A stretch of DNA of 42,116 bases from a virus. The notes beneath the pieces were generated by a model. It searched no databases. It had not been told where the DNA came from and saw nothing but the letters and a program-made list of their open reading frames with translations. Position 1 is the first letter of the stretch. Every line of letters begins with the position of its first letter. Of this stretch, positions 7,281 through 23,637 are shown piece by piece. The stretch covers positions 1-42,116 of the IMG/VR virus record IMGVR_UViG_3300048592_000613; one strand, 5' to 3'. The translations under genes were made by a program, and so were the position numbers.

Positions 7281-7345
7281 TGTCTGACAAATTTTCCGGT
7301 TACTTTGCCCCCTACTAGCGGTAGGGCGCTGATTTGGAGAGAATT

Positions 7346-7624
7346 ATGAGTGACGAAACGAAAGTTACGAGTACGACGAGTTTGGCGGTGCGGCAGTTCT
7401 GCGACCTGGCGTTTGGCTGGGTGCCGGTGCATCGACCCTCTACTCCTTTCAAGGTGGAGGCGGTGATGACTGAACAGCGGTATTGCCTGGGGTGCTGCGG
7501 GGTGCGGTGGTTCGATGTGGTGCGTGGGACCCCTCCCCTAGCCCCTCCCCAAATGGGAGAGAGCAATTTGGAGATGGGAAAGTACCAGGCGACGTTCTGC
7601 CGGTGCTGCGGGATGGAGGTATGA
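7346..7624 (+). CDS. Small zinc-ribbon-like protein (92 aa)
   Basis: Two cysteine clusters (CLGCCG and CRCCG) could bind one zinc ion. Between them is a Pro-rich, low-complexity insert (7528-7565) that copies the cccctcccc-type repeat found elsewhere in this genome, so the repeat seems to have been inserted in frame. The start with GGAGAG upstream is preferred to a TTG twelve bases earlier. The stop overlaps the next ATG (ATGA). Function unknown. Confidence 0.55.
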   Translation: MSDETKVTSTTSLAVRQFCDLAFGWVPVHRPSTPFKVEAVMTEQRYCLGCCGVRWFDVVRGTPPLAPPQMGESNLEMGKYQATFCRCCGMEV

Positions 7625-7953
7625 CGATGTTGGAAATTGTTTTGCGTTGGGCATTGGGTACCCTATTGACGGCTATCGTCACGGCGATCTTGACCATGTT
7701 GTTACGGCATGGGCGCCGATGGTTTCGACCTGTGCGCAGGTTTATTCGCACGGGGCGATGGCAAACTACCGGGAGAGGCATGAGACGAGATCACGCTGCC
7801 GCCGCGCGCCCCAACCAGGTCGCGAAAGAGCCGAAGATGACGGCGGCGCGGGTATTGACTTTGTTGGCGCAGTTGGCAGGGCGGAAAGCGCCGCCCCCAG
7901 CCTCCCCCCATCCAATCAATGACGAGTCTGAACGGTTGGATCTGAAATTCTAG
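7621..7953 (+). CDS. Single-span membrane protein with basic tail (110 aa)
   Basis: One hydrophobic helix (about residues 5-28) is followed by a strongly basic stretch (RRWFRPVRRFIR), so the positive-inside rule puts the C-terminal part in the cytoplasm. It is coupled to the upstream zinc-ribbon gene by ATGA overlap and lies directly upstream of a lipoprotein and an FtsK/HerA ATPase. It may be part of a membrane-bound DNA-handling assembly, but that is inference from neighbours only. Confidence 0.5.
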   Translation: MTMLEIVLRWALGTLLTAIVTAILTMLLRHGRRWFRPVRRFIRTGRWQTTGRGMRRDHAAAARPNQVAKEPKMTAARVLTLLAQLAGRKAPPPASPHPINDESERLDLKF

Positions 7954-7961
7954 GAGACACC

Positions 7962-8978
7962 ATGAAACGAACAATTATTCTTTTTATCTGGGTAATACTG
8001 ACGGTCGGGTTGGCGGCGATTGGATGCGCACCGACTCCCGAACCGCAAAACCCCGCTGAAATTGGCATGACGATGGCGGCGCAGGCGATGGACGCCCAGG
8101 CGACGAAGATGCGAATTGACATTCAATACACGGCGACGGCGCAGATCATTGCGGCGACCCAAAACGTGCAGAACACACAGGCGGCGGCGGCTGTGACCGA
8201 GCAATATCGAATGGATGCCATTGCAACCGACCAGCAAAACAGGCGGGACGCGGCGGCGACCGCGCAACGCATTCGAGACGACGCGGCGACGCAACAGGCG
8301 CGGCTGGATACGGAAGCGACCGCGGAGCAGGGGCGGCGGGACGCAGAAGCGACTGCCGAGCAGGGGCGCGTGGATACAATCAATACGCAATCGGCGGACG
8401 CAACAGCGACGTGGGTGCCAATGACATTGACTGCCGCGCCTACGAGTGATTGGCTGACACAACAAAATGCCATGCTTGAACTCGAAGAAAAACAAAACAA
8501 TGTTGATTTGAGCGACCTAGAGGTGGAGCAACAGCAGGAAAAAAATACGCTGGAATGGTTGATCCCCTTCCTGATCTCTCTCGCGTTGACCGCATTGATA
8601 TCGGTTGTGGCGGTTCGCCGCTCGCGCGTGCGCGAGGTGCGCAACGATGAGACGGGCGTGATCGAGGCGTTGATATTGGACAACGCGGAGGTATTACGTC
8701 CGCAACTGATGCCGGGACCCGTCCTGAATTTGAGCGGCGGTTCTGCGACCGCTCCACAGGTAACGGACAAGGAAACCCAGAACGAGGTGACGCGCAGGGC
8801 GCAGGCAATCGAAGCGCTGCGGGCAATGCCCACGCAAGCGCCGAATGCGAATGCGGCGCTGATGGCGAACAATGTCTTCGGCGAGGCGCGAAAGCCTGTG
8901 GTTGAGATTGTGGATGCCGAGGCGGTGAGCGGCTGGCTTGAGGATGTAACCCGACAAGCGGACGAGATGGAGGCATGA
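7962..8978 (+). CDS. Coiled-coil lipoprotein with Ala/Thr/Gln repeats (338 aa)
   Basis: A signal peptide ends in a lipobox (AAIGC, Cys near residue 23), so export and lipid anchoring are predicted. Residues 35-150 consist of imperfect repeats such as ATAEQGRRDAE that should form a long coiled coil. A second hydrophobic helix (about 198-218) follows, then a basic segment and a cytoplasm-like C-terminal region. Lipoproteins rich in ATATAQ-like words are typical of Anaerolineae, which is one basis for the host guess. The gene has GGAG upstream and is followed one base later by the FtsK-like gene. It might be a surface-exclusion factor or a membrane anchor; neither is shown. Confidence 0.7.
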   Translation: MKRTIILFIWVILTVGLAAIGCAPTPEPQNPAEIGMTMAAQAMDAQATKMRIDIQYTATAQIIAATQNVQNTQAAAAVTEQYRMDAIATDQQNRRDAAATAQRIRDDAATQQARLDTEATAEQGRRDAEATAEQGRVDTINTQSADATATWVPMTLTAAPTSDWLTQQNAMLELEEKQNNVDLSDLEVEQQQEKNTLEWLIPFLISLALTALISVVAVRRSRVREVRNDETGVIEALILDNAEVLRPQLMPGPVLNLSGGSATAPQVTDKETQNEVTRRAQAIEALRAMPTQAPNANAALMANNVFGEARKPVVEIVDAEAVSGWLEDVTRQADEMEA

Positions 8979-8979
8979 G

Positions 8980-10302
8980 ATGAATATGACGATGAAAATA
9001 TCGAATCGTTATGTGCCAGCGGCGCAGACTGCGGCAGGGATCATGCAGACGGTGCTGGGGTCGCTGCGCGGGACGGACCCGGCGTTGATCCGCCAGTTTG
9101 TTTTGACCGAGACGCGGGAGGGGGACGCCTGGCTATTCGCGGTAGTGGATGACCTGCGGATACAAAGTTATCAGCCGTGGGTGAATGCGCTCCATGCGCT
9201 CAGCACCAGCCTGCGCGGGCGACCGGTGTTCGTGAGCAACACAACGGGATTTCGATATGCGATCCTGCTTTCGGATCGTCCCACGCTGCCGAAAGAGGTC
9301 CCGTTTCCGGGGATGCGTCCGGGGACGGCGCAGATCGGGATGAGGGCGAACGGGCGACCGATGGATATAACGTGGGATGAATTGGGTCATGTGCTGGCGG
9401 CGGGGCAGACGCGGTATGGAAAAAGCAATTTCCTGCGCTCGTTGACGATGCAGGCGCGGGCGGATGGGTTTCGGTTTTTGCTTGCCGACCTGGACGGGCG
9501 CACATTCAGCGCGATGAAGGGCGACTCGAGTTTGATCCTGCCGATTGCCAACACACGGGAAGGGTTCGAGCAGGTTGTGAATATGGCGCTGATGGAATTG
9601 TCGAACCGAGTGCGATTGTTCGACGCGACGGAGGGCGCGCCGGATAACCTCGATGAATACAACCAGAAAGCGACCGAACCATTGCCGCCGATCATGCTGA
9701 TGCTCGATGAATTTTCCAGCGTGGTGCTGGGGATGGGCGGTCCGAAGAGCGATTTTGCAAAACTCGCGACGGAGATCGCCTGGCGCGGGTTGAAGTTCGG
9801 CATCCACGTAGTTCTGGCGGGGCAGGATTTCGGGAAGGATATTGTGGGTCCGATCCGCGAACAGATGCGGACGAGGTTGTGCTTCCGCGTGGCGACTGCG
9901 GATGTTTCGGATGTGGTGATCGGGCGGAGAGGAGCGGAGCGCATCCGCCAGCCGGGGCGGGCGATGATGCCGTCGGGGATGGTGCAGACATATCTGATTT
10001 TGAAGGAAGCGCTGGGGCGCGGTGCTCAGGGTGCGCAGGTGAGCGAGGCGGAAAGGCAGCTGTTGATTCGGCTCGTGAACGAGGCGGAGGGGAGGGCGGA
10101 TCTGGAAAAGATCATGGAATTCGGCGGGATCGCTGAGCGGCAGGCGCGCAGGCTGCGGGAGGATTGGGCGGCTCGCGGATTGATCGAGAAGCGGGCGGAA
10201 CGCAATAATGCCTGGTTTGTCGTCCAAACGCTCAGGGCGTCCGAACCCGTCCAAACCACGTCCGAACGTCCGAGCGGTGTCCAAGCCGGGCAGAATATTT
10301 AA
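8980..10302 (+). CDS. FtsK/HerA-type DNA translocase ATPase (440 aa)
   Basis: The Walker A motif GQTRYGKS is at residues 142-149 and the Walker B (IMLMLDEF) at 238-245. The spacing and the phrase HVLAAGQTRYGKSNFLR are characteristic of FtsK/SpoIIIE-HerA motors. A winged-helix-like region follows (about 375-420). There are no N-terminal membrane spans, so any membrane link would come from the two upstream membrane proteins. Likely roles are DNA segregation or transfer. The last 25 codons overlap a row of CGTCCRAAC repeats next to the parM operon. Confidence 0.8.
   Translation: MNMTMKISNRYVPAAQTAAGIMQTVLGSLRGTDPALIRQFVLTETREGDAWLFAVVDDLRIQSYQPWVNALHALSTSLRGRPVFVSNTTGFRYAILLSDRPTLPKEVPFPGMRPGTAQIGMRANGRPMDITWDELGHVLAAGQTRYGKSNFLRSLTMQARADGFRFLLADLDGRTFSAMKGDSSLILPIANTREGFEQVVNMALMELSNRVRLFDATEGAPDNLDEYNQKATEPLPPIMLMLDEFSSVVLGMGGPKSDFAKLATEIAWRGLKFGIHVVLAGQDFGKDIVGPIREQMRTRLCFRVATADVSDVVIGRRGAERIRQPGRAMMPSGMVQTYLILKEALGRGAQGAQVSEAERQLLIRLVNEAEGRADLEKIMEFGGIAERQARRLREDWAARGLIEKRAERNNAWFVVQTLRASEPVQTTSERPSGVQAGQNI
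10221..10286. repeat. Six CGTCCRAAC-type direct repeats
   Basis: Copies start at 10221, 10238, 10248, 10259, 10267 and 10278. The first four are CGTCCAAAC or CGTCCGAAC; the last two are degenerate. They lie in the 3' end of the FtsK-like gene, just upstream of the ParM operon. Direct repeats upstream of an actin-type partition operon are what a centromere-like (parC) site looks like, so I propose that role. Accidental repetition in a low-complexity C-terminus is the alternative. Confidence 0.45.
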
Positions 10303-10355: not shown

Positions 10356-10652
10356 ATGTACAAGTTCGAGGTCAAACTTCCACAAGGGCATGTATTGAGG
10401 ATTGTTGTCGAGAAAAATGATGGGACGATGGCAACCAGGATTGCTGACTTTGTTTCTTATACCTTCAAAGAAGAACCGAAGGCAAAGGGCATTCAGATTT
10501 CTGTGATTGCAGATCATTTCAAGAAAAAGGGCATTCCCGTCACTGCGAAAATCGTTGCCTGTAGATTACGGGAGACTGGATACAAAATCCAGCGCGGTCC
10601 TTCAGGCAGGTATTTGGTCGTCAATCCTGAATATTCAAAAGGAGAAAAATAA
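10356..10652 (+). CDS. Small winged-helix-like protein of the parM operon (98 aa)
   Basis: The N-terminal half is a beta-rich segment; residues 45-90 (ISVIADHFKKKGI...RLRETGYKI...GRYLVV) have the helix-turn-helix plus wing pattern of a DNA-binding protein. A good ribosome site (AAAAAGGAG) precedes it and its TAA overlaps the ATG of the actin gene (TAATG). Position suggests a regulator or centromere-binding partner of the actin; this is inference. Confidence 0.55.
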   Translation: MYKFEVKLPQGHVLRIVVEKNDGTMATRIADFVSYTFKEEPKAKGIQISVIADHFKKKGIPVTAKIVACRLRETGYKIQRGPSGRYLVVNPEYSKGEK

Positions 10653-11641
10653 TGTTTACGCTTGGTTGTGATCTTGGTCAGAGTTCGTTGAAGTTGGTTG
10701 GCGCGAAAGGCTCATTGCAATTCGCTTCGACGGCGGCGATCTTTTCGGGCATGGTGTCGGATTTCGGGTTCGGGAAGCGGCGGCGCAAGCCCGTCATCAT
10801 CGAGGGGGATCACGGGAAGTTGTGGGTCGGGACGGACGCACATTCGTTCGGGAGCGCCATCGAGAACATTGATTTCGAGCGGCTGACGGGGACGACGGAG
10901 ATGCGCTATATCTGGTACGGGGCGTTGAGCGAGTATATGCGCCAGTTCGGTTCGATTGACGAGCCGGTGCGCTTGATCGCGGGGCTGCCCTTCCAGATGT
11001 TGCAGGGCGACGATGCGGCGGTGGCGAAGTTCCGCAAGGACGTGACGGCATGGATGAGCGGAAGCCATACCTGGGAGGCGGACGGCACGCCGAGGCATGT
11101 GGAGATCGCGGACGTGCGCCTTTATCCGCAAGCTCTGGGCGCGCCGGTGGACTATGCGATGACGATGGACGGCAAGCCGGTGGATGCGGAACGCCAGAAG
11201 ATTTTGACTTACGAAAACGGGACAATCAACGTTGGGTCGAGCACGGTGGAGACGCTGGTGATCGACGGGAATAAGAACCAGCACGTTTTCAACGGCGGGA
11301 AGCGGATCGGCGTGTACCAATTGTGGAAACGGGTGGACCCGCGCCAGGCGTATTCGTTCGGCGAGTTCGAGGCGAAACTGAGAAGCGGGTCATTGCCGGA
11401 AGATATGGCGGTCGAGCCGCATTTGGAGAGCTGGTACAGCGAGGTGAACGGTTTCGTCAATTCAAAATGGGCGGAGAGCTGGAGGCGTTTCCATAAGATT
11501 TTCCTGGTGGGGGGCGGATCGATCCTGCTGGAGAAATTCTTCCGCAACCGATTCAACGGCAAGACTGTGACGATGGACGACCCGGTGATGAGCGTGTCGC
11601 GCGGGTTGTATAAATTAGGTTTTGGGATCAAGGAGAAATAA
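10652..11641 (+). CDS. ParM/Alp-like actin segregation ATPase (329 aa)
   Basis: An actin-fold ATPase that would form filaments to move DNA. Phosphate-1 motif DLGQSSLK is at residues 7-14, phosphate-2 INVGSSTVE at 192-200 and the adenosine motif FLVGGGS at 284-290. Length matches plasmid ParM and Alp proteins. It sits in a three-gene operon with a possible DNA-binding protein upstream and a small acidic protein downstream, next to two sets of direct repeats. Such operons maintain plasmids; in a temperate phage this points to an episomal prophage stage or to positioning of phage DNA in the cell. Confidence 0.85.
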   Translation: MFTLGCDLGQSSLKLVGAKGSLQFASTAAIFSGMVSDFGFGKRRRKPVIIEGDHGKLWVGTDAHSFGSAIENIDFERLTGTTEMRYIWYGALSEYMRQFGSIDEPVRLIAGLPFQMLQGDDAAVAKFRKDVTAWMSGSHTWEADGTPRHVEIADVRLYPQALGAPVDYAMTMDGKPVDAERQKILTYENGTINVGSSTVETLVIDGNKNQHVFNGGKRIGVYQLWKRVDPRQAYSFGEFEAKLRSGSLPEDMAVEPHLESWYSEVNGFVNSKWAESWRRFHKIFLVGGGSILLEKFFRNRFNGKTVTMDDPVMSVSRGLYKLGFGIKEK

Positions 11642-12701: not shown

Positions 12702-13278
12702 CGATGCTCTTTATATCGCTGAATGGCTGCGGGACGAGATGAAGCCTGCGTGCGCACGGATCGAGATCGGAGGCGGGGTGAGGCGCGGCAAGGCGGATGT
12801 GCATGACATCGAGATCATCGCTGTGCCGTTGTTCATTCCGACGCGCGATCTATTCGGCACGGTCATTTCGAATGAAAATCAGTTGGACGCCATTTTGTGC
12901 GAGTTGGAAGGATTGGCAGCGTTGAAGCGGGTCAAGGGCGGGGAGAAATTCAAGCAGTTCGAGATCGGGCGCTGGGAAGAGTTTGCGATTCAACGTCCCG
13001 ATCAGTCGTTCAAGCTGGACCTATTTCTGGTTACACCTCCCGCTTCATGGGGCGCGCAGTTTGTAATCCGCACGGGTCCCGCCGAATTCAGCCAGTGGAT
13101 GGTGACGAAAAAGATGCTGGGCGGAGCATTGCCGGATCATTGTTACGTCAAAGGCGGCGCAATCTGGGATGGCAGGGACGGGAGCAAGATCGAAATGCCG
13201 GAGGAGACGGATTTTTTCCGCTTGTGCGGGTTGGATTGGATCGAGCCGGGTCAACGCGCGGCGAGGTGGAAGCGATGA
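12691..13278 (+). CDS. PolX-like nucleotidyltransferase (195 aa)
   Basis: The palm signature GGGVRRGKADVHDIEI (from residue 27) contains the Gly-Gly/Arg element of DNA polymerase beta and an acidic pair (Asp39, Glu41). A third acidic residue is in KLDLFLV (Asp110). The following FVIRTGPAEFSQWM corresponds to the PolX FxxxTGS...fN region that binds nucleotide. It is shorter than bacterial PolX and lacks the 8-kDa and PHP domains, so it is a minimal polymerase-like or nucleotide-transfer enzyme. Its stop overlaps the intI start (ATGA), which ties it to the integron. Confidence 0.7.
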   Translation: MMYNDALYIAEWLRDEMKPACARIEIGGGVRRGKADVHDIEIIAVPLFIPTRDLFGTVISNENQLDAILCELEGLAALKRVKGGEKFKQFEIGRWEEFAIQRPDQSFKLDLFLVTPPASWGAQFVIRTGPAEFSQWMVTKKMLGGALPDHCYVKGGAIWDGRDGSKIEMPEETDFFRLCGLDWIEPGQRAARWKR

Positions 13279-14270
13279 AGATGAACTCTACAGAAGCCAG
13301 AGAGCAATTTGCCAAATGGCTTGAGGCGAAGTTTTACAGCAAAGGGACAGTCGATTCTTATGTGCCGTCAGTTCCCAGCTTCTTCAAGTTTCTTGGGTCT
13401 CACCCTGATGTTGTGGGACTGTCGCACTCGAAGCGCGTGGAGGCATATCTATCGAGCAGGGTGGTCGAGGATGACATAGCCGCATCCACCCAGAATGTGG
13501 AACTGACGGCGTTGGTGCAATTTCACCGTATGTTGGGTATCGAGTTGACGGGCATCAACGCCTTGCGCGCAAAGCGCCGCGACCGCATTCCGCCCATCAT
13601 GTCCAAAGAGCAAGTGAAGATTCTGATCGAAAACTTTCCGCATGAATTCAGGCTGGTTCCGATGATCCTTTACGGCTGCGCCATGCGGATCAATGAATGC
13701 CTTCGGCTCAGGATAAAGGACGTGGATTTATCCCTGAAGAAATTCGTCATCCACGAAGCGAAAGGAGACAAGGAGCGCGTTGTATCCATCCCAAACAGTC
13801 TTATCCCTTACGTTAAAATTCAGTATGACAAAGCCGTTGCCATGTGGGAGATCGATAAATACCACACGTTCAACGGTGTCAATTGCAGAGGCGTGGAGAA
13901 GAAATACCCGTCCTATCCGATGTCGAGAGATTGGTATTGGTTTCTCCCTGCCGCCTCATATTCAACAGATCCAAAGTCGCATACGCCGATGATGAGGCAT
14001 CACACGATGGACTGGACGATACAGCGGATGTTTGAAGATGTCCGTGGTCGTTTCCATCTCCCGGTCTATGCGACGCCGCACATCCTGCGCCATGCCTGCC
14101 TCACCCATATGACGGAGGACCTGATCGGGAAAGGATTTACAGAAACGATGATCAAAGCAGAATTAAAGAAGTTGAGCGGGCATGTCATGGACGAAACCTT
14201 GGAAGGGTATATCCACCTGGCGACTCCCAAGAATGTTCATATTGTTTCTCCCATCGAAGGACTTGTATAG
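13275..14270 (+). CDS. intI: Integron integrase (331 aa)
   Basis: A tyrosine recombinase with Arg138 (AMRIN), His269 and Arg272 (PHILRH), His303 (LSGH) and nucleophile Tyr312 (EGYIHL). Between the first Arg and the HxxR box it carries the extra domain that separates IntI from Xer and phage integrases: VEKKYPSYP, then W-Y-W-F-LP, STDPKS and RHH (about residues 207-250), which correspond closely to the same landmarks in IntI1. Length is that of IntI proteins. It is coupled to the PolX-like gene and transcribed toward the cassettes, the reverse of classical integrons. It would excise and insert cassettes at attI and attC. Confidence 0.93.
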   Translation: MKMNSTEAREQFAKWLEAKFYSKGTVDSYVPSVPSFFKFLGSHPDVVGLSHSKRVEAYLSSRVVEDDIAASTQNVELTALVQFHRMLGIELTGINALRAKRRDRIPPIMSKEQVKILIENFPHEFRLVPMILYGCAMRINECLRLRIKDVDLSLKKFVIHEAKGDKERVVSIPNSLIPYVKIQYDKAVAMWEIDKYHTFNGVNCRGVEKKYPSYPMSRDWYWFLPAASYSTDPKSHTPMMRHHTMDWTIQRMFEDVRGRFHLPVYATPHILRHACLTHMTEDLIGKGFTETMIKAELKKLSGHVMDETLEGYIHLATPKNVHIVSPIEGLV

Positions 14271-14310
14271 ATGGGTTATTCTGATATTGTCGGTAAATGA
14301 ATTGTTAGCC
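14271..14310 (+). other. Putative attI insertion site
   Basis: Forty bases separate the intI stop from the first cassette. The core box GTTAGCC (14304-14310) gives the crossover G/TT at 14304/14305. No gene fits here and no clear promoter is visible, so cassettes are probably read from the upstream operon. Assignment rests on position between intI and the first cassette. Confidence 0.7.
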
Positions 14311-14336
14311 AGCCCATTACGGGCAAGGAGAATCGC

Positions 14337-14606
14337 ATGGCAAAAACAATAGAACTCGAAGATGATGAAATCGACGTAGTTGAAGAATATCGCGCCAAAC
14401 GTGAGGCGCAGAAGAAGCAAAGCAATTTGCAGTTTGAGATTTTAGAGCAGGCATACGAATATGAAAAGTGGTTGCGCGAAAATGGCGCAGGTTCATCGTA
14501 TTCAACATTCTGCGATCAATATGGTTATCCTGCTATGGAAAACCGCAAATTTATTTATGAATGTGTCGAAGCAATTAGACGGTCTGCATGGATGCAGGCT
14601 GGCTAA
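14337..14606 (+). CDS. Cassette 1 protein, unknown (89 aa)
   Basis: A strongly charged helical N-terminus (acidic, then Lys/Arg-rich) is followed by a Tyr-rich helical region. CAAGGAGAAT upstream is a strong ribosome site, of the type shared with cassettes 2 and 3. The TAA stop is part of the attC left box GGCTAAC, so the gene fills its cassette exactly. No family recognised. Confidence 0.6.
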   Translation: MAKTIELEDDEIDVVEEYRAKREAQKKQSNLQFEILEQAYEYEKWLRENGAGSSYSTFCDQYGYPAMENRKFIYECVEAIRRSAWMQAG

Positions 14607-14730
14607 CAAAGCGTGCACCTGACGCTGGGGATTCTGCGGCAATCTCAAGCAGTTTCCTACGCCTGAGCCTTTTTCTGGCTGGACGGCTTCGCCGTCCCCG
14701 CCCCAGCGCAGGTAACGCAATCCGTTGGGC
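14601..14730 (+). repeat. attC site of cassette 1
   Basis: Left box GGCTAAC (14601-14607) and right box GTTGGGC (14724-14730). The arms AGCGTGCACCTGACGCTGGGG and CCCCAGCGCAGGTAACG pair, leaving one unpaired A in the left arm (ACCTG-A-CGC). The apical part holds a second hairpin (14681-14697, GGACGGC/GCCGTCC). About 130 bases, in the range of long VCR-like attC sites. Confidence 0.92.
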
Positions 14731-14758
14731 GGCTCTCGCTCAACAAGGAGAATTGCAA

Positions 14759-14983
14759 ATGGAATATATGCAAATGAAGTATTATCCAAAAGAAGTTTAT
14801 TACGAAAATCGTGGTGGTGTAAATTACATCATTCTGGATTACGGTGACAATAAAGTTGAGCATGTCATAGCCGCCCAACAAAGCGTGCACCTGACTTTGC
14901 TAGAGTCGGAGCAAATTTGGTCGTCGTATTGCAGTTGTGCCACTTGCAAGCAGAGATCCGCAGTTATACCGCAAAGCAGGTAA
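14759..14983 (+). CDS. Cassette 2 protein, unknown (74 aa)
   Basis: AACAAGGAG precedes the ATG. Only the first 38 codons lie before the attC; the remaining residues are encoded by the attC itself and include QQSVHLTL. The Tyr-rich N-terminal half looks like a small beta-strand protein. A longer frame from 14588 would cross the previous attC and is rejected. The true product is uncertain. Confidence 0.45.
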   Translation: MEYMQMKYYPKEVYYENRGGVNYIILDYGDNKVEHVIAAQQSVHLTLLESEQIWSSYCSCATCKQRSAVIPQSR

Positions 14984-14998
14984 CGCAATCCGTTCGGC
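14873..14998 (+). repeat. attC site of cassette 2
   Basis: Left box GCCCAAC (14873-14879) matches the cassette start TTGGGC; right box is GTTCGGC (14992-14998). Arms CACCTGACTTTGC and GCAAAGCAGGTAACG pair with the same single unpaired A. The pairing bases differ from attC1 on both sides, so the stem is preserved by compensating changes. Confidence 0.92.
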
Positions 14999-15014
14999 GG
15001 ACAAGGAGAAAAAT

Positions 15015-15266
15015 ATGTCAGTAATAAATTGTAGGTGTGGCAAGCCTTTGAAAAGTGGAATGGAAGTTGAACACTCTGCATGGTTGAATGAATTTTTTTG
15101 CTCACCATCTTGCGCTCAAGATAGATATTTTGAATACATGGAAAGCACGCCTGTTGATTTTGAAAACAAATTGCCTGATGGTGCTGCAATCAATGACGAT
15201 GGTTTTTTGGTGGATGACGCCGAACAAAGCGTGCACCTGACGCTGGGGGATTCGGCGGCAAATTAG
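15015..15266 (+). CDS. Cassette 3 protein with Cys-rich motif (83 aa)
   Basis: Residues 6-8 (CRC) and a later FFCSPSCAQ provide four cysteines, suggesting a small zinc finger. ACAAGGAGAA is the ribosome site. The last 15 residues are read from the attC, with AEQSVHLTL resembling the tail of the cassette 2 product. Unknown function. Confidence 0.55.
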   Translation: MSVINCRCGKPLKSGMEVEHSAWLNEFFCSPSCAQDRYFEYMESTPVDFENKLPDGAAINDDGFLVDDAEQSVHLTLGDSAAN

Positions 15267-15348
15267 GCTTTATCTACGCTGTGGGCTGGTTCTGCTTTGA
15301 CGGCTTCGCCGTCACTAGCCCCAGCGCAGGTAACGCAAACCGTTAGCC
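15219..15348 (+). repeat. attC site of cassette 3
   Basis: Left box GCCGAAC (15219-15225) is complementary to the cassette start TTCGGC; right box is GTTAGCC (15342-15348). The left arm AACAAAGCGTGCACCTGAC is identical to those of attC1 and attC2. An apical GACGGC/GCCGTC hairpin is again present. About 130 bases. Confidence 0.92.
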
Positions 15349-15372
15349 ACCTATCTTAAAAAGGAAATCAGT

Positions 15373-15612
15373 ATGAAAACTCCAAAAGAAAAATATATGA
15401 ATGACCCCGAGTACAATCATCTTGTCAAAACGCTTGAAATGATGATTGAGCAGGCGCGTTTCACTCCGTCCGAACTTCGGGAAGCCGTAATACTGGCTTG
15501 TATCAATTACGAAATGCGCCATGTCCGCGAAATGCAAATTGACCCGCGCACCGATGAAGCATTGAGAGTGCTTGAAAACTTTGTCAATAGTCCCCGCAAG
15601 CGCGGTGGCTAA
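15373..15612 (+). CDS. Cassette 4 protein, unknown helical (79 aa)
   Basis: A predominantly helical, charged protein (LVKTLEMMIEQARF, SELREAVILACINYEMRH). AAAAAGGAA precedes the ATG. The TAA stop is inside the attC left box, as in cassette 1. It has the size and helicity of small regulatory or antitoxin-like proteins, but no specific resemblance is claimed. Confidence 0.6.
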   Translation: MKTPKEKYMNDPEYNHLVKTLEMMIEQARFTPSELREAVILACINYEMRHVREMQIDPRTDEALRVLENFVNSPRKRGG

Positions 15613-15696
15613 CATAGCGTGCACCTGACGCGGGTGGGCGGTGGTCACAATCGGACAGGTTATGACCACCCGCGCAGGTAACGCAATCCGTTAGGC
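15607..15696 (+). repeat. attC site of cassette 4
   Basis: Left box GGCTAAC (15607-15613), extended pairing with the cassette start TTAGCCAC; right box GTTAGGC (15690-15696). The arms CACCTGACGCGGGTGG and CCACCCGCGCAGGTAAC pair around one unpaired A. At about 90 bases it is shorter than attC1 to attC3. Confidence 0.92.
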
Positions 15697-15705
15697 ATCT
15701 AAGCA

Positions 15706-16209
15706 ATGTTGAATTTACAGCCCATTACATACCCCGAAGCGTGCAAGTTCATTGAACTTGTCCATCGCCACCACCTACCGCCGCAAGGCTGGAAGTTTGG
15801 TATCGCCGTGAATGATGGTGAGAAAGTTGTAGGCGTTATCACAGTAGGGCGTCCTGTTGCTCGAATGTTGGATGATGGCTGGACACTTGAAGTCACCCGA
15901 TGCGCTACCGATGGCACAAAGAACGCCCCTAGCATGTTGTATGGAGCTGCGAAGCGTGCCGCCTTTGCAATGGGCTATAAGCGAATTATCACATACACAT
16001 TGCAGAGCGAGCCTGGCACGTCTCTTGTATCTGCTGGCTGGCGTTCTCTTGGTGAAGCTGGCGGCGGTACGTGGAGTAGATCATCAAGACCCCGTGTTGA
16101 TTTGCATCCGATTGAGCAAAAGACTTTATGGGAAGTAGTCTCTACGATGCCTAACAATGCGTGCACCCGACAGGGGCGGGCTGTGGCAGATGATGAAGTA
16201 TCTGAATAA
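15706..16209 (+). CDS. Cassette 5 XF1762-like acetyltransferase-fold protein (167 aa)
   Basis: Recognisable as the XF1762 family by the sequence of landmarks HRHHLPPQGWKFGI, VGRPVARMLDDG, LEVTRCATDG, NAPSMLYGAA, YTLQSEPGTSL and GGGTWSR. This family is GNAT-like and common in phages; its substrate is unknown. No strong ribosome site is seen: the ATG lies 15 bases into the cassette. The last 19 residues are encoded by the attC. It is the only cassette gene with a family I can name firmly. Confidence 0.8.
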   Translation: MLNLQPITYPEACKFIELVHRHHLPPQGWKFGIAVNDGEKVVGVITVGRPVARMLDDGWTLEVTRCATDGTKNAPSMLYGAAKRAAFAMGYKRIITYTLQSEPGTSLVSAGWRSLGEAGGGTWSRSSRPRVDLHPIEQKTLWEVVSTMPNNACTRQGRAVADDEVSE

Positions 16210-16258
16210 CTTTGTAGGCTGGCGTTCTCGCCCCTGCGGGTAACGCAATCCGTTCGGC
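16149..16258 (+). repeat. attC site of cassette 5
   Basis: Left box GCCTAAC (16149-16155), whose extension GATGCCTAAC exactly complements the cassette start TTAGGCATC; right box GTTCGGC (16252-16258). Arms CACCCGACAGGGGCG and CGCCCCTGCGGGTAACG pair around one unpaired A. About 110 bases. Confidence 0.92.
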
Positions 16259-16266
16259 GGCATCTG

Positions 16267-16434
16267 ATGAATAATAGTTTCGATAAATGGGTTCACGCAA
16301 AAAGAATACGCGACGCGATAAACATGTATCATTTTGCAAAGGCTCGCGGAATATCGTCGCTTGCTCTTGCGGCTTTACGGCAAGCATTGTTTTTGAAGGT
16401 CTTGGAAAAACATACGAAGGAGAAAAAAATATGA
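16267..16434 (+). CDS. Cassette 6 first ORF, unknown (55 aa)
   Basis: The ATG follows the cassette start by 14 bases. The product is basic and helical (MNNSFDKWVHAKRIR...). Its TGA overlaps the ATG of the next ORF (ATGA), the typical sign of coupling. There is no strong ribosome site of its own. An overlapping longer frame from 16287 competes with it, so this gene is plausible but unproven. Confidence 0.4.
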   Translation: MNNSFDKWVHAKRIRDAINMYHFAKARGISSLALAALRQALFLKVLEKHTKEKKI

Positions 16435-16661
16435 TGATTTCACTAAGAGTCCGCGGTGGAGACACCTATTATTTGAATGTAGATTTGATTGAATCGATAA
16501 TTGAACGGGAAGGAAACACGTCAGAAATTCGCCTTACCAATGGGAAGGTTTATTCGTCAATTGAATCTCCAGGACAATTAGCAAACCGCGTTACACGCGC
16601 TCAAATGTCTTCCGAATTAGCAAAACCAAAAGAAGGAATATATGCCAATTCTTTACGATAA
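16431..16661 (+). CDS. Cassette 6 FlbD-like small protein (76 aa)
   Basis: GAAGGAGAAA precedes the ATG. The sequence MMISLRVRGGDTYYLNVDL, then IESIIE and RLTNGKVY, follows the pattern of FlbD-like proteins (I-x-L-T/R, hydrophobic-N-x-D/E-LIE-xIE, TNGKK-hydrophobic-V). Such proteins are small beta-hairpin proteins linked to flagellar genes. The likeness is short and could be convergent. Confidence 0.5.
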   Translation: MMISLRVRGGDTYYLNVDLIESIIEREGNTSEIRLTNGKVYSSIESPGQLANRVTRAQMSSELAKPKEGIYANSLR

Positions 16662-16860
16662 TTATTTGATAGTTCCGCACAAAGATTTACATGGCGTCTT
16701 TGACGCTAGTGCAAAAAAGAAACCCGTAGCAATGAGGCACGCGCTTGATCTTGCTAAAAAAACTAACAAGGTAATTGTGATAGTGCGCGTCATCGAAATC
16801 ATAACTCCACAGCAAGCCGCCGAACACAGCGTGGAGCAGACGGGTGAACAGTCGGGCTAA
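16642..16860 (+). CDS. Cassette 6 third ORF, unknown (72 aa)
   Basis: It overlaps the previous gene by 20 bases and has AGAAGGAAT upstream. The protein has beta-strand-rich ends and a Lys-rich middle. The last 14 residues (AEHSVEQTGEQSG) come from the attC, in the same frame used in cassettes 2 and 3. Unknown function. Confidence 0.5.
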   Translation: MPILYDNYLIVPHKDLHGVFDASAKKKPVAMRHALDLAKKTNKVIVIVRVIEIITPQQAAEHSVEQTGEQSG

Positions 16861-16926
16861 ATTTTATGGTCTTGCGTGGCGGCGGCTCTGGCGCAATCCA
16901 CCCGCTGCTCACGCAAACCGTTCGGC
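16819..16926 (+). repeat. attC site of cassette 6
   Basis: Left box GCCGAAC (16819-16825) complements the cassette start TTCGGCGGC; right box GTTCGGC (16920-16926). Arms GGAGCAGACGGGTG and CACCCGCTGCTCACGC pair with the same unpaired A although the arm sequence differs from other sites. About 108 bases. Confidence 0.88.
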
Positions 16927-16959
16927 GGCTACCTTGCTGTCCGAAGAAAGGTAAAAATT

Positions 16960-17286
16960 ATGTCACTCGAAGAATGGGCTGATTTGCATGGCGAAGATTA
17001 TCCGAAAGGCAAGTATTTTAGTGCGCTAGATTATGGGCGCGGCGATGGAACTTGTATAACGATATATTGCGAATATTGCGAACAGCCTTTTGAAATCAAT
17101 GAAGGCGAGATTGATGACTGGCTTGTTATTGATCCAGTGAGCGGCGATAGGGTTGTAATGTGTGGCGAATGTGAGAGTAAGAGTAAGTATTGTAACTGCC
17201 CTCCAAGTGTTCCACGCTATGATGCAGGCAATGGTTGGAAATGCCACTGGTGCAAAAAGCCTCGGCGTCCTGTGGAGAGTGAATAA
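16960..17286 (+). CDS. Cassette 7 protein with two zinc-ribbon motifs (108 aa)
   Basis: Cysteine pairs CEYC and CGEC, then CNC and CHWC, can form two zinc ribbons. The first half is acidic. GAAGAAAGG lies upstream of the chosen ATG; the longer frame from 16876 starts within the previous attC and is rejected. The stop overlaps the next gene by one base (TAATG). Confidence 0.6.
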   Translation: MSLEEWADLHGEDYPKGKYFSALDYGRGDGTCITIYCEYCEQPFEINEGEIDDWLVIDPVSGDRVVMCGECESKSKYCNCPPSVPRYDAGNGWKCHWCKKPRRPVESE

Positions 17287-17498
17287 TGAATGTTGATTGG
17301 GATAAAATCTGTGATTTTGTGTTTGATACCTTCGGTGACGATAACGCAGAAATGGCGCGTTACACCATTACAGAATTTGGAATAGACCCTGATACACATC
17401 GTCCGTTTCTCGATGCAGACAAATGTTGGGGATGCGGCGAAAGTAATGGAAATCATGAAGAGTGGTGTCTAAACAATGACCCGTTGAGTGATATATGA
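17286..17498 (+). CDS. Cassette 7 second ORF, acidic protein (70 aa)
   Basis: An acidic, aromatic-rich N-terminus is followed by CWGCGESNGNHEEWC, a likely single metal site. Start and stop overlap the upstream gene by one base, so both are made from one message. It ends 11 bases before the attC. Function unknown. Confidence 0.55.
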   Translation: MNVDWDKICDFVFDTFGDDNAEMARYTITEFGIDPDTHRPFLDADKCWGCGESNGNHEEWCLNNDPLSDI

Positions 17499-17509
17499 GC
17501 AGCGACGCC

Positions 17510-17583
17510 GCCGAACAAGGCTTGCACCTGACTGTCGGGAGTCTGCGCTAAAGGCTTCGCGCAGGTTACGCAAGCCGTTGCCA
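17510..17583 (+). repeat. attC site of cassette 7, short and degenerate
   Basis: Left box GCCGAAC (17510-17516) complements the cassette start TTCGGC; the right box GTTGCCA (17577-17583) departs from consensus. Arms CTTGCACCTG and CAGGTTACGCAAG pair, and an inner CTGCGC/GCGCAG stem is present. About 74 bases. As the outermost, oldest site it is expected to be least preserved. Confidence 0.8.
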
Positions 17584-17644: not shown

Positions 17645-17672
17645 TTGACAATTTATAAAAAGATTCTATAAT
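17645..17672 (+). promoter_or_regulatory. Sigma70-type promoter before the late region
   Basis: TTGACA (17645-17650), a 16-base spacer and TATAAT (17667-17672): both hexamers match the consensus. Transcription would start near 17679, just where a stable hairpin begins. It lies between the last attC and the late genes. Confidence 0.8.
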
Positions 17673-17678
17673 CTATCT

Positions 17679-17880
17679 ATTGACCGCTTGGGTGCCCCCC
17701 TTACCCCGGCGGTCAATGCTTTAAGAAAGATTAGAATCTCTGTTCTGACTCTTGTTAAATTATTTAATTTGTGTTAAAAATTAGGTACAACTTAATGTTT
17801 TTGCACCGCCCGCCCAATGTGGCAGGCACGTTTCGGAGATAAGCGCCCGATGACCATCAACGGTCATCGGGCGCTTTTTT
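17679..17880 (+). ncRNA. Putative 200-nt structured RNA or leader
   Basis: A transcript from the promoter would begin with a stem TTGACCGC/GCGGTCAA (17680-17716) that encloses a GGGT/ACCC stem, continue through AT-rich DNA, and end at a strong terminator. No ORF is present, and the ribosome site of the next gene lies beyond the terminator. The arrangement fits a stand-alone small RNA, or a leader controlled by antitermination. No known family was recognised. Confidence 0.5.
17842..17880 (+). terminator. Strong rho-independent terminator
   Basis: A 14-bp perfect stem, AGCGCCCGATGACC (17842-17855) with GGTCATCGGGCGCT (17862-17875), six-base loop, followed by a run of T. A second short palindrome CCCCACATTGTGGGG lies at 17885-17899, before the holin-like gene. 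Confidence 0.9.
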
Positions 17881-18632: not shown

Positions 18633-19352
18633 ATGACTAACGGACGATTGGACCAGCCAGTTTATCAACTCCCCATGCCGCTTCAGGGCGTGGATGATGC
18701 GATTCAGGGCGAAGTTCTATCTCCTCGTGAAGCTGCGTTTGCAGCTCTTTCTGTTTTGCGTGTGAAGGAACCCATCACCGATAAGGTTCGTGAGCGGGAT
18801 GATAAATCTGGGAAGACTGTCGAGCGAGATGTAGTGATCGGTCAGCGCGAGATTGCGCCGCGCTGGATGGAACTTTTCCAAAAATTGCTCGAAGGCGGCT
18901 GGCGCTGGGAGATCGCTGTTTATATTGCCTGGCGTGCCATGCCGAGAAAGTACCGCTTCCCTGAAACGCAAGATGAACTTGCGAAGCAATGCCTGGGGTT
19001 GTCTTCAGACCGCGCGATTGCAACATGGCGCAAGCGCAATCCGTTTATCGATGAATACATCACGATCTTGCAGGGTGAGCTTGTGTTCGATGCTGTGCCG
19101 GATGTGCTGAATGCGGCTGTGGAAGTTGCATCTACTCCAGACTACAAAGGCAATGCAGATCGAAAGTTGGTGCTCGAAATGGCAGGACGTTATACACCGT
19201 CCTCGAAGATCACGACAGAAATGGCGAAGAAGCTGGTCAACAGCAAGCCGGATGATCTGGAAGACCTGAGCGATGATGAATTGCGAAGGATCGAAGAGAC
19301 TGTGGCGGTTGCCCGCAAGAATAAGCAGGATGAGGAACCGAGCGAAGCATGA
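18633..19352 (+). CDS. Terminase small subunit candidate (239 aa)
   Basis: The middle part (residues 75-145) has a helix-turn-helix-like pattern: PRKYRFPETQDELAKQCLG, then a recognition-like helix with TWRKRNPFI. This resembles homeodomain-like small terminase subunits. The C-terminus is acidic and Lys-rich (DDLEDLSDDELRRIEETV). Its stop overlaps the large subunit start (ATGA). The assignment rests mainly on this position. Confidence 0.7.
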   Translation: MTNGRLDQPVYQLPMPLQGVDDAIQGEVLSPREAAFAALSVLRVKEPITDKVRERDDKSGKTVERDVVIGQREIAPRWMELFQKLLEGGWRWEIAVYIAWRAMPRKYRFPETQDELAKQCLGLSSDRAIATWRKRNPFIDEYITILQGELVFDAVPDVLNAAVEVASTPDYKGNADRKLVLEMAGRYTPSSKITTEMAKKLVNSKPDDLEDLSDDELRRIEETVAVARKNKQDEEPSEA

Positions 19353-20956
19353 ATTCGGCAGCCTTACTTACGCGTGATCCGTTATTAGCCAAAGCCGAGC
19401 GTGCCAGGCGTGAATTGGCGCGGCGGCATTTGATCAATTTCAACGCGTATATTTCCCCGGACTATAACTGGACTTTGCCGCATCTGAATTTGCTTGCCAA
19501 AAAATTGGAAGAGGTTGAACTTTTCATCCGCACCAAGGGCGAGCAGGGCTGCGGGCGGTTGATCGTGATGATGCCGCCCCAGCATGGCAAGACAGAAACC
19601 ATTACGAAGCATTTTTCCGCGTGGCTCTTGGGACGCAACCCAAACACGCGCATTATTTTGGGATCGTATAACGATGAGACCGCAACTGAGAACAGTCAGC
19701 GGGTGCGTAATATGGTCATGGATGATGAGTTTGCAAAAATATTCGGACGAAAAAGCCGATATGCAACCATTGACCGCGATGTGCAGGTCTCGGAAGATTC
19801 AAAGGCGAAAAAGAATTGGGATATCGCCGGTTTTCGCGGCGGCTGCCGTTCGGCAGGTGTAGGCGGCGGTATTACAGGCAAGCCTGCGGATGTGATTGTC
19901 ATTGACGACCCGCATAAAGACCGCGACGATGTGACGTTTACAAGCATCCAGCGCGTGATCCGCTGGTGGAATTCTCAGGTGGTTTCCCGTATCCGCAAAC
20001 GGACTGCGGTCATCATTGTGCATACACGTTGGGACCCGGATGATCTGATTGGCTCGCGTTTGAAGCTAATGGTTAGCGGCAAGAAACATGCCGATCAGTG
20101 GGATGTGCTTTGCCTTCCGGCTGTGGCAATGGAACCGAAGGAATATGCACCGAACGAGAAGGTGCAGCGCGAAAAGCTCGAACAAGGAATCTGGCTGGAT
20201 CTGTTTGATCCACTCGGACGGAAGCCCGGCGAGCCGCTTTGGGCTGACGAGCATCCCCTGGAGTTGTTGGAATCGAAGCGGGCGAACGATGAGTTCGAAT
20301 GGTGGGCGATGTATATGCAGCAGCCACGCCCATTGACCGGCGGATTTTTCGAGCGGGATGATTTCGAGATCGTTGACCGGCAGGATGTACCGGAAGGGAT
20401 TCAGTGGTTCCGCTACGTTGACCTGGCACTGTCTGAAAGTTCCACCGCCGATTACAACGCCACCGTTGCGGTTGGTATGGACCCGAAGAATGGCGATGTG
20501 TACTTGCGGGATATGCTGCGCTTGCGTGGTTGGATGAACTTCCGACCGCTGTTGATCGAATCGATGCTGTCGGACAAGGAACACGGCACGGTCTGGGGCA
20601 TCGAGACGGTTTCGTTTCAGGCTCTGGCGTTTCAGGAATTGGTTCGTGACCCGCGCCTGGCAAAAATACCGATGCTGGACATCAAGCCGGAAGCCAGCAA
20701 GGGACAACGAGCACAACCGTTGCGGTTGCGCGGGAAGAACGGTCAGTTGAAGTTGGTGAGGGGAGCATGGAATTCCGCATTTATTGATGAGGCTGTTTTA
20801 TTCAAGCCGGATGGAAGCAAGCGCGACGATCAAATCGACACGGGCAGCGGCGGCTTGCAGATGATCGCTGATTTGAGTTATGGCACTCAGAAGACTGCCA
20901 GCAGCGAAGCGACGGTTGTGCAGATCGAAAGCATGTTCACAGGCAGTTATCAGTAG
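19349..20956 (+). CDS. terL: Terminase large subunit (535 aa)
   Basis: The DNA packaging motor. Walker A is MPPQHGKT (residues 75-82) and Walker B VIVIDDP (182-188), preceded by the GGGITGKPAD segment usual in this family. The C-terminal RNase H-like nuclease shows its first Asp in RYVDLALSES (near residue 356). Length is normal for TerL. It would bind the portal (26187) and cut the packaged genome. Confidence 0.93.
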   Translation: MNSAALLTRDPLLAKAERARRELARRHLINFNAYISPDYNWTLPHLNLLAKKLEEVELFIRTKGEQGCGRLIVMMPPQHGKTETITKHFSAWLLGRNPNTRIILGSYNDETATENSQRVRNMVMDDEFAKIFGRKSRYATIDRDVQVSEDSKAKKNWDIAGFRGGCRSAGVGGGITGKPADVIVIDDPHKDRDDVTFTSIQRVIRWWNSQVVSRIRKRTAVIIVHTRWDPDDLIGSRLKLMVSGKKHADQWDVLCLPAVAMEPKEYAPNEKVQREKLEQGIWLDLFDPLGRKPGEPLWADEHPLELLESKRANDEFEWWAMYMQQPRPLTGGFFERDDFEIVDRQDVPEGIQWFRYVDLALSESSTADYNATVAVGMDPKNGDVYLRDMLRLRGWMNFRPLLIESMLSDKEHGTVWGIETVSFQALAFQELVRDPRLAKIPMLDIKPEASKGQRAQPLRLRGKNGQLKLVRGAWNSAFIDEAVLFKPDGSKRDDQIDTGSGGLQMIADLSYGTQKTASSEATVVQIESMFTGSYQ

Positions 20957-21021: not shown

Positions 21022-23637
21022 ATGAAAAAGAAAATCGGCAAAGGAAAAGTGATCGAGGAGCTGGTAAAGGGCAGCCTGGATTACACCGTGCAGAGCATCC
21101 GTGATGCGTTTTGGAAACAGTTCAGCGACGCTTCGGGCAGTTTTTATATTGCGGAGATGTTCGCAGATTATGTGATCGTGAGCGGCTGGGGCGAGAAGTG
21201 GACGTTGAAGGCGGATGAGTATTACCGCGTGCCGTACACCCGCGATGGCGAAAGCATCACCTTTGCAGCTCGTGATGCATGGGAGATCGTGGAGCTGACT
21301 TATCAGCCGCAGACGGTGATCACCGAAAGCAAGAAGAAAAGCGGGACTCGCTTCGAGGAGGCTATCCAGCCTGGGCAGATTGAACTGCTGGAGGCGAAGG
21401 ATGAAGCGAAGGGGACGCGCCGCATCCGTATCAATAATTTGGTTGTGGCGAATGTTGTCAATGGTAATAAACGTTTCTATGAACCTGAGATCATTGAAGC
21501 GATGATTGCGGACTGGCAATCTCATCTTCACGAGAGCGCAGGGCAGGGACGTTTGAAGATACTGACGGGTGAGGCAGATCATCCAACCGACAAGGGCAGA
21601 AAACGTTCGGAGTTTCTTGAGACAGTGGTCCGTTGGGACAAACTGGATTGGGATGGTAAGCGGCTCGATATTGAGGGCGATCTTATCTTGACCAGCAAGG
21701 GACGCGACGTTGAGATCCTGATGGAGGCTGGCGTAACGCCTGGCGGCAGTATTCGTGGTGTGGGCGAATCGAAACTTGAATCGATGAACGGTCAGAAGGT
21801 TCAGAAAGTTTTATGGCTTTCGATGACTGGGGTCGATCTGGTTGGCGATCCGTCGTTCAAAAATTCTGCTGAATTGCAGGAATCTATTACACAAACAGGA
21901 GATGAGGCAATGAACCTCGAAGAGCTTTTGAAACTTTTGCGTGAGCACCCGGATGCATTTGCCGGTATCACGGAAGCCCAGATCAAGAAGATGGGCGATG
22001 AGCAGTTGAAGAAACTGGAAGAAAGCCTGCGCTCGAAGCTGGGCATTGGCGCGGATGCCGATATTGCCAAGGCTCTCGATGAGAGCATGGATAAGGCTCG
22101 CAAGTTCGATGAAAGCCAGAAGAAGGCGGAAGTCGAAACCGCGATCACCGAGGCGACCAAGGACCTGCAGTTTGGTAAGGAACTTAACGAAGCGTTCACC
22201 GAGTCCATCAAGGATGGCAAGTTCGAAAGCGCCGAAGAGGTGAAGACCTTTGCGGAGAGCCAGCGCAAGGTGTTTGGCAAGCTGGCTGCGAGCGCCAAGT
22301 TGAAGGGCATGGGCTTCAAGCCCGGTTCCGGCATTCAAATGATCGGTGATGTGCTGGAGAATGAAACCGGCACGCCCGAATTTGCGCGTGTGGCTTTCGA
22401 GTTGAGCGAATCGGTTCGCAAGCATGAGAAACGCGCCAAGCGCACGTTGGTTCTACGCGCTGAAAGCCCCGCTGCTGTTTTAACCGAAATGTTGTTGGAG
22501 AAATTCGACAAGCAGTTCCAACGCCAGTTGATCGCCGAGGCAAAGGCGTTTCAAGAGGCAGAGAGCACTTCCGATCTGAATCTGCCTTACAGCGTGAGCC
22601 GCACAGTGATCGCAGAAGCATACCCGAACCTGGTAGCTGCCAATGTGTTTGACTTTGGCATTATGGATCAATCGCCGATGAATATCTTTTACGAGACCTT
22701 CACCGGTGAAACGGGCTTCACCGTGGCGATCACTGATGAGGTGGAAGCCTTGGGTGCAGAAGATACCTGGTATGACCTCGCGCAAAAGAACATCGTGCCT
22801 GGCACCGTTGTTGTGACCAGCAACCCCGCGGGCACCACCTACGTGGAAGGTACTGATTACGTGATCGATTACGAACTCGGCAAGATCCGCGGGATTGCGG
22901 CAGGCGCCATCGATGCCAACGATGTGTTGGTTGACTATTCGTACCATGCCACCCGCAAGGGTGAGGATACCGAAATCGAACGTGCCAAGACCACGCTCGT
23001 CTACCAGACCATCACCGCAGCTGCTGACCGCCTCTCTGACTACATCACCAACGAGGCGATTGTCTTCAGCCGCTCACAGATCGGTTGGGATGCGGTTGGT
23101 CGCACGATGGCGAATATCATCCGCGAAATGCGCCGCGATAAAGATCGCCGCTTGATCGAGAAGGCGTTGGCGGCTGCACTTTCGGTCGCGAACAACAAAA
23201 CCGCCGCATGGGATATCAGTGATGCTGTTTATCTGGATCTGGTGAAGCGCATCGGCGAAGCGAAGGTGAAAGTGATTAACCGCTTCTATACCCCAACCTC
23301 CCTGCTGATGAGCGCGACCAACTCGGATTACCTGAGCAATTGGGACGGTTTCACTCGTGACGGTTTCCCGAACGCAATGCTGAATGCCGCTGGTTTCGTT
23401 GGCAGAGTGAAGGGTTTGGATGTCTTTGAAACCCCGGAAATGCGTGATGCGTTCAACCTGGTACTGAACCGCGAACTTGTGATGCACCGTATTTTCTCGC
23501 CGATGACCGTTAAAGGTCCCTTCCATACAACCAGCAATGGCAAGTTGGTTGCTGCCGAACAGTATTACGCGGAAGAATATAACGCTTCCCTCGCGCCGAT
23601 TGGCGGCAAGGGCAGTGTTGTACCGACACAGGCGTAA
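21022..23637 (+). CDS. Fused prohead protease, scaffold and major capsid protein (871 aa)
   Basis: Three head functions lie in one frame. Residues 130-290 look like a T4 gp21-type serine protease: His187 in GEADHP, Ser243 in GGSIRG, and Asp in VDLVGDPSF. Residues 297-475 are charged, helical and coiled-coil-like, as in scaffolds. Residues 480-871 resemble a capsid protein (LPYSVSRTVIAEAYPNLVAANVF; TGETGFTVAI; SQIGWDAVGRTMANIIREM). A strong ribosome site with in-frame ATG at 21910 (Met297) would yield a scaffold-capsid product without protease, like the Nu3 start in lambda gene C. The protease presumably cuts capsid from scaffold. Residues 1-130 are unassigned. Confidence 0.85.
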   Translation: MKKKIGKGKVIEELVKGSLDYTVQSIRDAFWKQFSDASGSFYIAEMFADYVIVSGWGEKWTLKADEYYRVPYTRDGESITFAARDAWEIVELTYQPQTVITESKKKSGTRFEEAIQPGQIELLEAKDEAKGTRRIRINNLVVANVVNGNKRFYEPEIIEAMIADWQSHLHESAGQGRLKILTGEADHPTDKGRKRSEFLETVVRWDKLDWDGKRLDIEGDLILTSKGRDVEILMEAGVTPGGSIRGVGESKLESMNGQKVQKVLWLSMTGVDLVGDPSFKNSAELQESITQTGDEAMNLEELLKLLREHPDAFAGITEAQIKKMGDEQLKKLEESLRSKLGIGADADIAKALDESMDKARKFDESQKKAEVETAITEATKDLQFGKELNEAFTESIKDGKFESAEEVKTFAESQRKVFGKLAASAKLKGMGFKPGSGIQMIGDVLENETGTPEFARVAFELSESVRKHEKRAKRTLVLRAESPAAVLTEMLLEKFDKQFQRQLIAEAKAFQEAESTSDLNLPYSVSRTVIAEAYPNLVAANVFDFGIMDQSPMNIFYETFTGETGFTVAITDEVEALGAEDTWYDLAQKNIVPGTVVVTSNPAGTTYVEGTDYVIDYELGKIRGIAAGAIDANDVLVDYSYHATRKGEDTEIERAKTTLVYQTITAAADRLSDYITNEAIVFSRSQIGWDAVGRTMANIIREMRRDKDRRLIEKALAAALSVANNKTAAWDISDAVYLDLVKRIGEAKVKVINRFYTPTSLLMSATNSDYLSNWDGFTRDGFPNAMLNAAGFVGRVKGLDVFETPEMRDAFNLVLNRELVMHRIFSPMTVKGPFHTTSNGKLVAAEQYYAEEYNASLAPIGGKGSVVPTQA
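21897..21912 (+). promoter_or_regulatory. Internal ribosome site and start within the capsid gene
   Basis: AGGAG (21897-21901) lies eight bases before an in-frame ATG (21910-21912), which begins MNLEELLKLL at the protease-scaffold junction. Translation from here gives a 575-aa scaffold-capsid protein. Confidence 0.75.

Follow-up and report, generated by a model that had tools for sequence, protein, structure and literature searches.

We analysed a stretch of viral DNA of 42,116 nt (IMG/VR record IMGVR_UViG_3300048592_000613; "the window" denotes this whole stretch) in which an integron lies between early and late phage genes. It consists of an integron integrase gene (intI, 13275–14270), an attI-like site and seven gene cassettes with their attC sites, the last of which ends at 17583. 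The integron, its flanking genes and the promoter–terminator region downstream of it are all on the plus strand. An earlier note, made from the letters alone, had proposed a complete integron with seven cassettes at 13275–17583 of a phage genome, and both coordinates and count proved right: intI adjoins attI, seven attC sites display the R''/L''/L'/R' structure, the G|TT boundaries are present in 7/7, and phage genes lie with them on one circle.

The intI gene encodes a 331-aa protein whose best NCBIfam match is the integron integrase model TIGR02249 (204.6 bits, E 2.3e-60, residues 11–329), while the Xer families score far lower (XerA 92.8 bits, XerC 66.1 bits). Among solved structures the Vibrio integron integrase 2a3v ranks first by sequence, with 118 bits against 58 for XerA, and it is also the top fold match of a structural model of the window IntI (13 sequences; mean predicted local distance difference test score, pLDDT, 79; predicted template modelling score, pTM, 0.61). 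The catalytic residues R138, K163, H269, R272, H303 and Y312 are invariant in the alignment. The extra domain that is specific to IntI, located between the second and third catalytic patches, is present and aligns with 2a3v (KKYP...STDPKS...RHH); it includes the KYP, STDPKS and RHH landmarks singled out in the earlier note. The window IntI is a divergent outlier with an intact catalytic set, and a single-sequence pattern scan of IMG/VR with this protein returned no close relative.

The attI-like region (14271–14310) is a lone half-site with the crossover G|TTAGCC at 14304|14305, 33 bp past the intI stop; it adjoins intI as in the relatives described below, and the left end of cassette 1 is the reverse complement of R'' of attC1. 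Repeat analysis of the window yielded two conserved arms in six to seven copies, and a detector that ignored the consensus sequence and searched for box motifs with complementary arms picked out exactly seven sites in the array, compared with 2 or 3 per strand elsewhere (38 kb). The strongest evidence that these sites are attC, independent of the arms, is the crossover rule: insertion at G|TTRRRY makes the left-end box of a cassette the reverse complement of R'' of its own attC. R'' was the exact reverse complement of the 7-base left-end box in 7/7 cassettes (permutation p 0.0024), whereas R'' and R' of the same attC matched in 1/7 only. Pairing in the attC stem is 95.8%, and double-change cells number 12, where shuffles give 3.8 and none of 500 comes as high. 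When the window was searched with a covariance model of the seven sites, it yielded these seven and no others (E 8e-26 to 5e-11), and the model gave dozens of matches in other viral arrays outside its training set; a search of the window with Rfam gave no match. On the crossover rule, folding, covariation and the covariance model we placed attC1 at 14601–14730, attC2 at 14873–14998 (weak by folding energy alone), attC3 at 15219–15348, attC4 at 15607–15696, attC5 at 16149–16258, attC6 at 16819–16926 (with compensatory changes in the stem) and attC7 at 17510–17583, in which R', GTTGCCA, would represent what was once the right half of attI.

Most of the cassette genes are small. Cassette 1 encodes an 89-aa protein (14337–14606) of a phage family without assigned function (phrog_18280, E 1.8e-9). 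The short open reading frame (ORF) of cassette 2 (14759–14983) runs into attC2 and is of unsure coding status; the 83-aa, cysteine-rich protein of cassette 3 (15015–15266) likewise runs into attC3, and the 79-aa product of cassette 4 (15373–15612) has no family match. Cassette 5 (15706–16209) encodes a Mom-like DNA modification protein of the XF1762 family (phrog_1384, E 4.6e-32; NF045478, 195.7 bits for a cut-off of 50). Cassette 6 (16287–16860) holds a gene for a FlbD-like domain protein (16287–16661; PF06289, 26.4 bits) and a 72-aa ORF (16642–16860), and has a 66% homologue in L109, a relative that lacks IntI. Cassette 7 (16960–17498) encodes cysteine-rich proteins of 108 aa and 70 aa; homologous proteins are encoded by a cassette of G004 (84% over 74 residues) and by one of G438 (45% over 38 residues). 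The arrays of relatives contain MT-A70 and N6/N4 methyltransferases together with many small proteins without identified function, and beyond one weak match we found no defence-system families among the cassettes. DNA modification, by Mom-like proteins and methyltransferases, is the only clear cargo theme. Mom and phage methyltransferases have a known role in counter-restriction and, because of this role, we propose by analogy that the cargo may counter host restriction.

In several arrays we also observed cassette proteins that read through attC (L003:9751–10086, L003:8553–8798, L021:16401–16685, L219:10060–10530). Common to them is a tail, TKRA(P/L)D or similar, after which comes a zinc-ribbon-like CxxC...CxxC stretch encoded inside attC, and their stop codon falls in the conserved AGGTAACGC box of the site. 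Here attC may have a second role, as a module that codes for a C-terminal tail.

The integron is probably transcribed as part of the phage programme. The start of intI overlaps by 4 bp the stop of the preceding early/middle phage gene (12679–13278), a homologue of which adjoins an array-free site in the relative L095. A scan for a Pc promoter at intI and attI returned weak consensus matches only, no more than in shuffles, and because no attI promoter is evident the cassettes would be expressed by read-through of the phage early operon. Downstream of the array (17645–17876) lie a late promoter at 17645–17672, for which the earlier note was borne out by a 12/12 consensus match, and a strong terminator hairpin at 17841–17876. 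A perfect promoter, a hairpin and a strong terminator stand between array and late genes (window 17645–17880; also L207:18818 and L109:6700), and GAATCTCTGTTCTGACTCTTGTTAA, from this region, is kept verbatim in G438 and L109; the arrangement resembles, by analogy, the lambda late leader with its antitermination. In the phage arrays the attC sites follow intI downstream and share its orientation, whereas the chromosomal loci with detectable attC sites are divergent in 11/11 cases, with attC upstream of intI in the classic orientation; neither the phage nor the chromosomal counts are independent by descent, and for this reason a Fisher p computed from them was set aside. In the virus clade of IntI described below, the sequence past the intI stop is conserved up to the GTT, as AAT(A/C)ATGA|GTT with small departures, and then varies with the first cassette.

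Relatives of the window were collected by an attC motif scan of IMG/VR (13 contigs), by a scan of the same database with an IntI alignment (56 contigs with IntI relatives) and by a search with the capsid protein (about 33 clear relatives). Gene-by-gene comparison revealed nine syntenic phages, mostly from independent samples: the window, G002, Rctr41k, G035, G437, G438, G442, G443 and G444. They share one order on one strand, that is, an early block with a ParM-like gene and small genes, then intI, the cassettes and terminase; no ParM-like gene was detected in G035 or G442, and for G444 it falls outside the stretch examined. The flank markers in the window are the ParM-like partition gene on the left (10652–11641, phrog_691) and the genes for the small and large terminase subunits on the right (18633–20956). 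The covariance model detected attC sites in 9/9 of these phages, and the cassette sets differ in every phage compared, which is what the earlier note had proposed to look for in related phages. Between the window and G002, IntI is 28% identical while several flanking genes are 70–89% identical, suggesting that integrase and array are either swapped or subject to very rapid evolution while the frame around them stays stable. An integron at the same spot in related phages, with different cassettes each time, suggests that these phages own a gene-swapping device and did not pick it up by accident. More widely, IntI relatives of several IntI groups occur on >50 viral contigs (L037–L092), part of which were checked for attC or phage genes, and viral integrons therefore look commoner than published. 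In the GenBank record of one of the nine phages (L003; KX853513.1, Virus Rctr41k, 4680–10101), intI is annotated as a xerD integrase-like gene and the attC array is not annotated.

Some relatives without IntI retain parts of the locus. L095 has a single attC (E 2e-13) at 3022–3114, behind an 89-aa ORF and just upstream of terminase, and this lone site either marks a cassette whose insertion involved no phage integrase or is a remnant. Seven attC sites are present in L104, and L109 has methyltransferase-type genes along with its homologue of cassette 6, without attC. These three contigs represent intermediate states of the locus; the covariance-model search found no attC in L101, L107, L108, L109, L125, L132 and L133, which are IntI-less as well.

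In order to place the phage integrases, we built a quick tree with support from the Shimodaira–Hasegawa-like approximate likelihood ratio test (SH-aLRT). One clade (SH-aLRT 100) groups fourteen viral IntI without any chromosomal sequence, and it holds after addition of the chromosomal IntI retrieved when that of G002 served as the query. The best chromosomal match to the G002 IntI, among 396 Anaerolineae genomes, is 61% identical, compared with about 80% within the clade, and terminase of phrog_38, the one family searched, is present on 9/14 contigs of the clade. The Rctr41k IntI grouped with other viral IntI and one sequence from a metagenome-assembled genome (MAG). The window IntI sits on a long branch and its placement is unsure, so that the window itself falls outside what the claim of a virus-only clade covers. 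An IntI relative is found in 91/396 Anaerolineae genomes; these chromosomal proteins are 28–35% identical to the window IntI and up to 61% to that of G002, and host attC sites score up to 78 bits with the phage covariance model.

The rest of the window is a phage genome. Bases 41773–42116 overlap bases 1–344 over 344 bp (97.4% identical, the last 127 exact), and joining the two ends gives a circle of about 41,772 bp; the genome (~41.8 kb) is circular and essentially complete, and array and late genes stand on one molecule, as the earlier note had wished to see established. The 9 mismatches in the overlap indicate that the two ends come from different strains, reflecting population microdiversity. 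PHROGs matches include the large terminase, a protease/capsid fusion, portal, major tail and tape measure proteins, a serine integrase and a repressor; all the phage functions listed in the earlier note are there. With terminase, portal, capsid and tail genes on the same circular genome, the phage belongs to the tailed phages (Caudoviricetes). Besides intI there are two more recombinase genes, for a Xer-like tyrosine recombinase (2002–2976) and for the large serine integrase (38698–40338), which is 87% identical in G002. An 871-aa protein (21022–23637), with a head maturation protease match in its N-terminal part and structural families further on, suggests a protease/capsid fusion and served as the family marker for relatives. 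On the minus strand, 40374–41258 encodes a lipoprotein-like or membrane-anchored protein with a cysteine-rich C-terminus; the gene adjoins the repressor-like gene and the integrase and is a candidate lysogenic gene. The major capsid protein has 72–76% matches on contigs of Anaerolineales MAGs and, from these matches and the host-type attC, which are the sole evidence for the assignment, the host is probably a member of the Anaerolineales (Chloroflexota).

A few contigs hint at movement of the arrays. The G002 contig ends with attI joined to a cassette and begins with CC joined to the same cassette, as it would stand after an attC, with 127 bp in common; in G005, a circular contig, the cut falls at an attC crossover, and the G035 contig ends at attI. 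Such breaks fit a mixed population of arrays and, being limited to three contigs, are treated as suggestive. Pairs of contigs with near-identical IntI, checked for cassette changes, were mostly identical in sequence and gave no information on this point.

Altogether, we consider it likely that a complete integron is resident in a lineage of temperate tailed phages, where it serves as an exchangeable bay for small accessory genes. IntI would be translated together with the early/middle operon, the last gene of which overlaps the intI start. It would insert circular cassettes, in the form of their folded bottom strands, into attI by recombination at G|TT, and would excise cassettes at attC sites. 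By way of the bay, the phage could swap genes for counter-restriction or host interaction, and cassettes could pass to and from those chromosomal integrons of the host whose attC sites are of the same type. With less assurance, we lean towards the fuller proposition that the integron has been domesticated, with a fixed site, a co-directional placement within the phage transcription programme, integrases diversified in viruses, a role as a counter-defence bay and a shuttle of cassettes between phage and host. Several observations weigh against residency of a working integron. IntI is missing from most of the relatives found by the capsid protein, and cassette 7 was not found in the 396 Anaerolineae genomes. 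The profile check suggested in the earlier note succeeded in that the best match is the IntI-specific model, and fell short in that 204.6 bits is below 265, the curated cut-off that NCBI sets as an operational threshold; among the syntenic IntI, those of G002 (404.7 bits), Rctr41k (383 bits) and G035 (380.7 bits) exceed it. In the attC check that the note suggested, the covariance model was strongly significant and 5/7 folding energies (z -2.8 to -4.7) were clearly better than those of shuffles, but attC2 (z -0.3) and attC7 (z -1.5) fold no better than shuffles by energy. The window IntI lies on a very long branch without a close relative for a selection test, contigs examined other than G002, G005 and G035 do not generally end at crossover points, and recombination activity of the phage IntI is something that we infer from sequence.

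The long branch and the sub-threshold score could also mean that the window carries a relic, a once-active integron whose IntI has decayed in function and whose cassettes are now ordinary phage genes; the IntI-less array of L104 and the single attC of L095 would fit such a history. However, the intI ORF is full-length, with a complete catalytic set and the IntI-specific domain, and the seven cassettes are clean with intact boundaries, and we regard a relic as unlikely. We judge it quite improbable, and it is already disfavoured, that a prophage captured a piece of a host chromosomal integron by chance and makes no use of it, as in Vibrio anguillarum phages (PMC9892861). The host class is certainly rich in integrons (91 of the 396 genomes), attC of one type is common to phage and host, the Rctr41k-type IntI groups with a MAG sequence and complete phage integrons of such a sort have been published (PMC9892861). 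Yet the locus is the same in nine phages and internal to the genome, not at its ends, its layout is opposite to that of host integrons, and the IntI clade is virus-only, with no close chromosomal IntI. A tyrosine recombinase in a temperate phage could also be the phage's own integrase, with the repeats as its attachment sites; this was thought unlikely given the large serine integrase and the Xer-like gene that the phage already has and, as seven attC-type sites obeying the crossover rule would be useless in lysogeny, we hold it to be extremely improbable. Metagenomic contigs with repeat-rich arrays invite assembly chimeras, here of a phage and a bacterial integron, but the window contig closes on itself and the same junctions turn up in assemblies made independently, among them a GenBank record derived from an enrichment culture; we ruled out a chimera on circularity and synteny and give it next to no credence. 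A resident integron, in our reading, accounts best for the locus.

If this is true, a phage family with an integron at a fixed locus would be an owner and distributor of cassettes, with a means of changing anti-restriction genes rapidly and a route for cassettes of sedentary integrons between bacteria; the use of integrons by phages during infection becomes testable. Integrons are usually treated as systems of chromosomes or of plasmids and transposons, and the published complete ones in phages as captured pieces. One correction to the earlier note, which took intact integrons in phages to be rare, is that the kind is already published: Qi et al. 2023 (PMC9892861) reported 3 complete integrons, one In0 and 17 clusters of attC sites lacking an integron integrase (CALINs) in 10,705 phage genomes. 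The complete ones are Vibrio chromosomal integron fragments, class 1 integrons on P1 and one in a cryptic Shewanella prophage; phage attC sites recombined with IntI1, and methyltransferase cassettes were present in phage CALINs. That survey left out partial records, and Rctr41k is labelled partial. Among the open-licence papers searched, none describes an integron lineage resident in phages, and earlier work in other journals or preprints is possible. Phage integrons as such are known, and their residency is what looks new; beyond the earlier note, the real novelty is an integron at the same position in a phage family, many IntI in a virus-only clade and the co-directional layout.

The integrons of PMC9892861 resemble those described here in having intI, attC and cassettes, methyltransferase cassettes included, on phage genomes, but the complete ones are captured pieces, whereas the lineage of the window has a fixed internal position in several related phages and a virus-only IntI clade. 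Anaerolineae chromosomal integrons have related IntI and the same attC type, and differ in their divergent layout. The co-directional layout is shared with the chromosomal integrons of Treponema, in which intI is transcribed towards attI in the direction of the cassettes (PMC3607928), although these stand on a bacterial chromosome. The best solved relative of the window IntI is Vibrio cholerae IntIA (PDB 2a3v), 24% identical over the structural alignment; Vibrio has a long superintegron, while the array of the window comprises seven cassettes.

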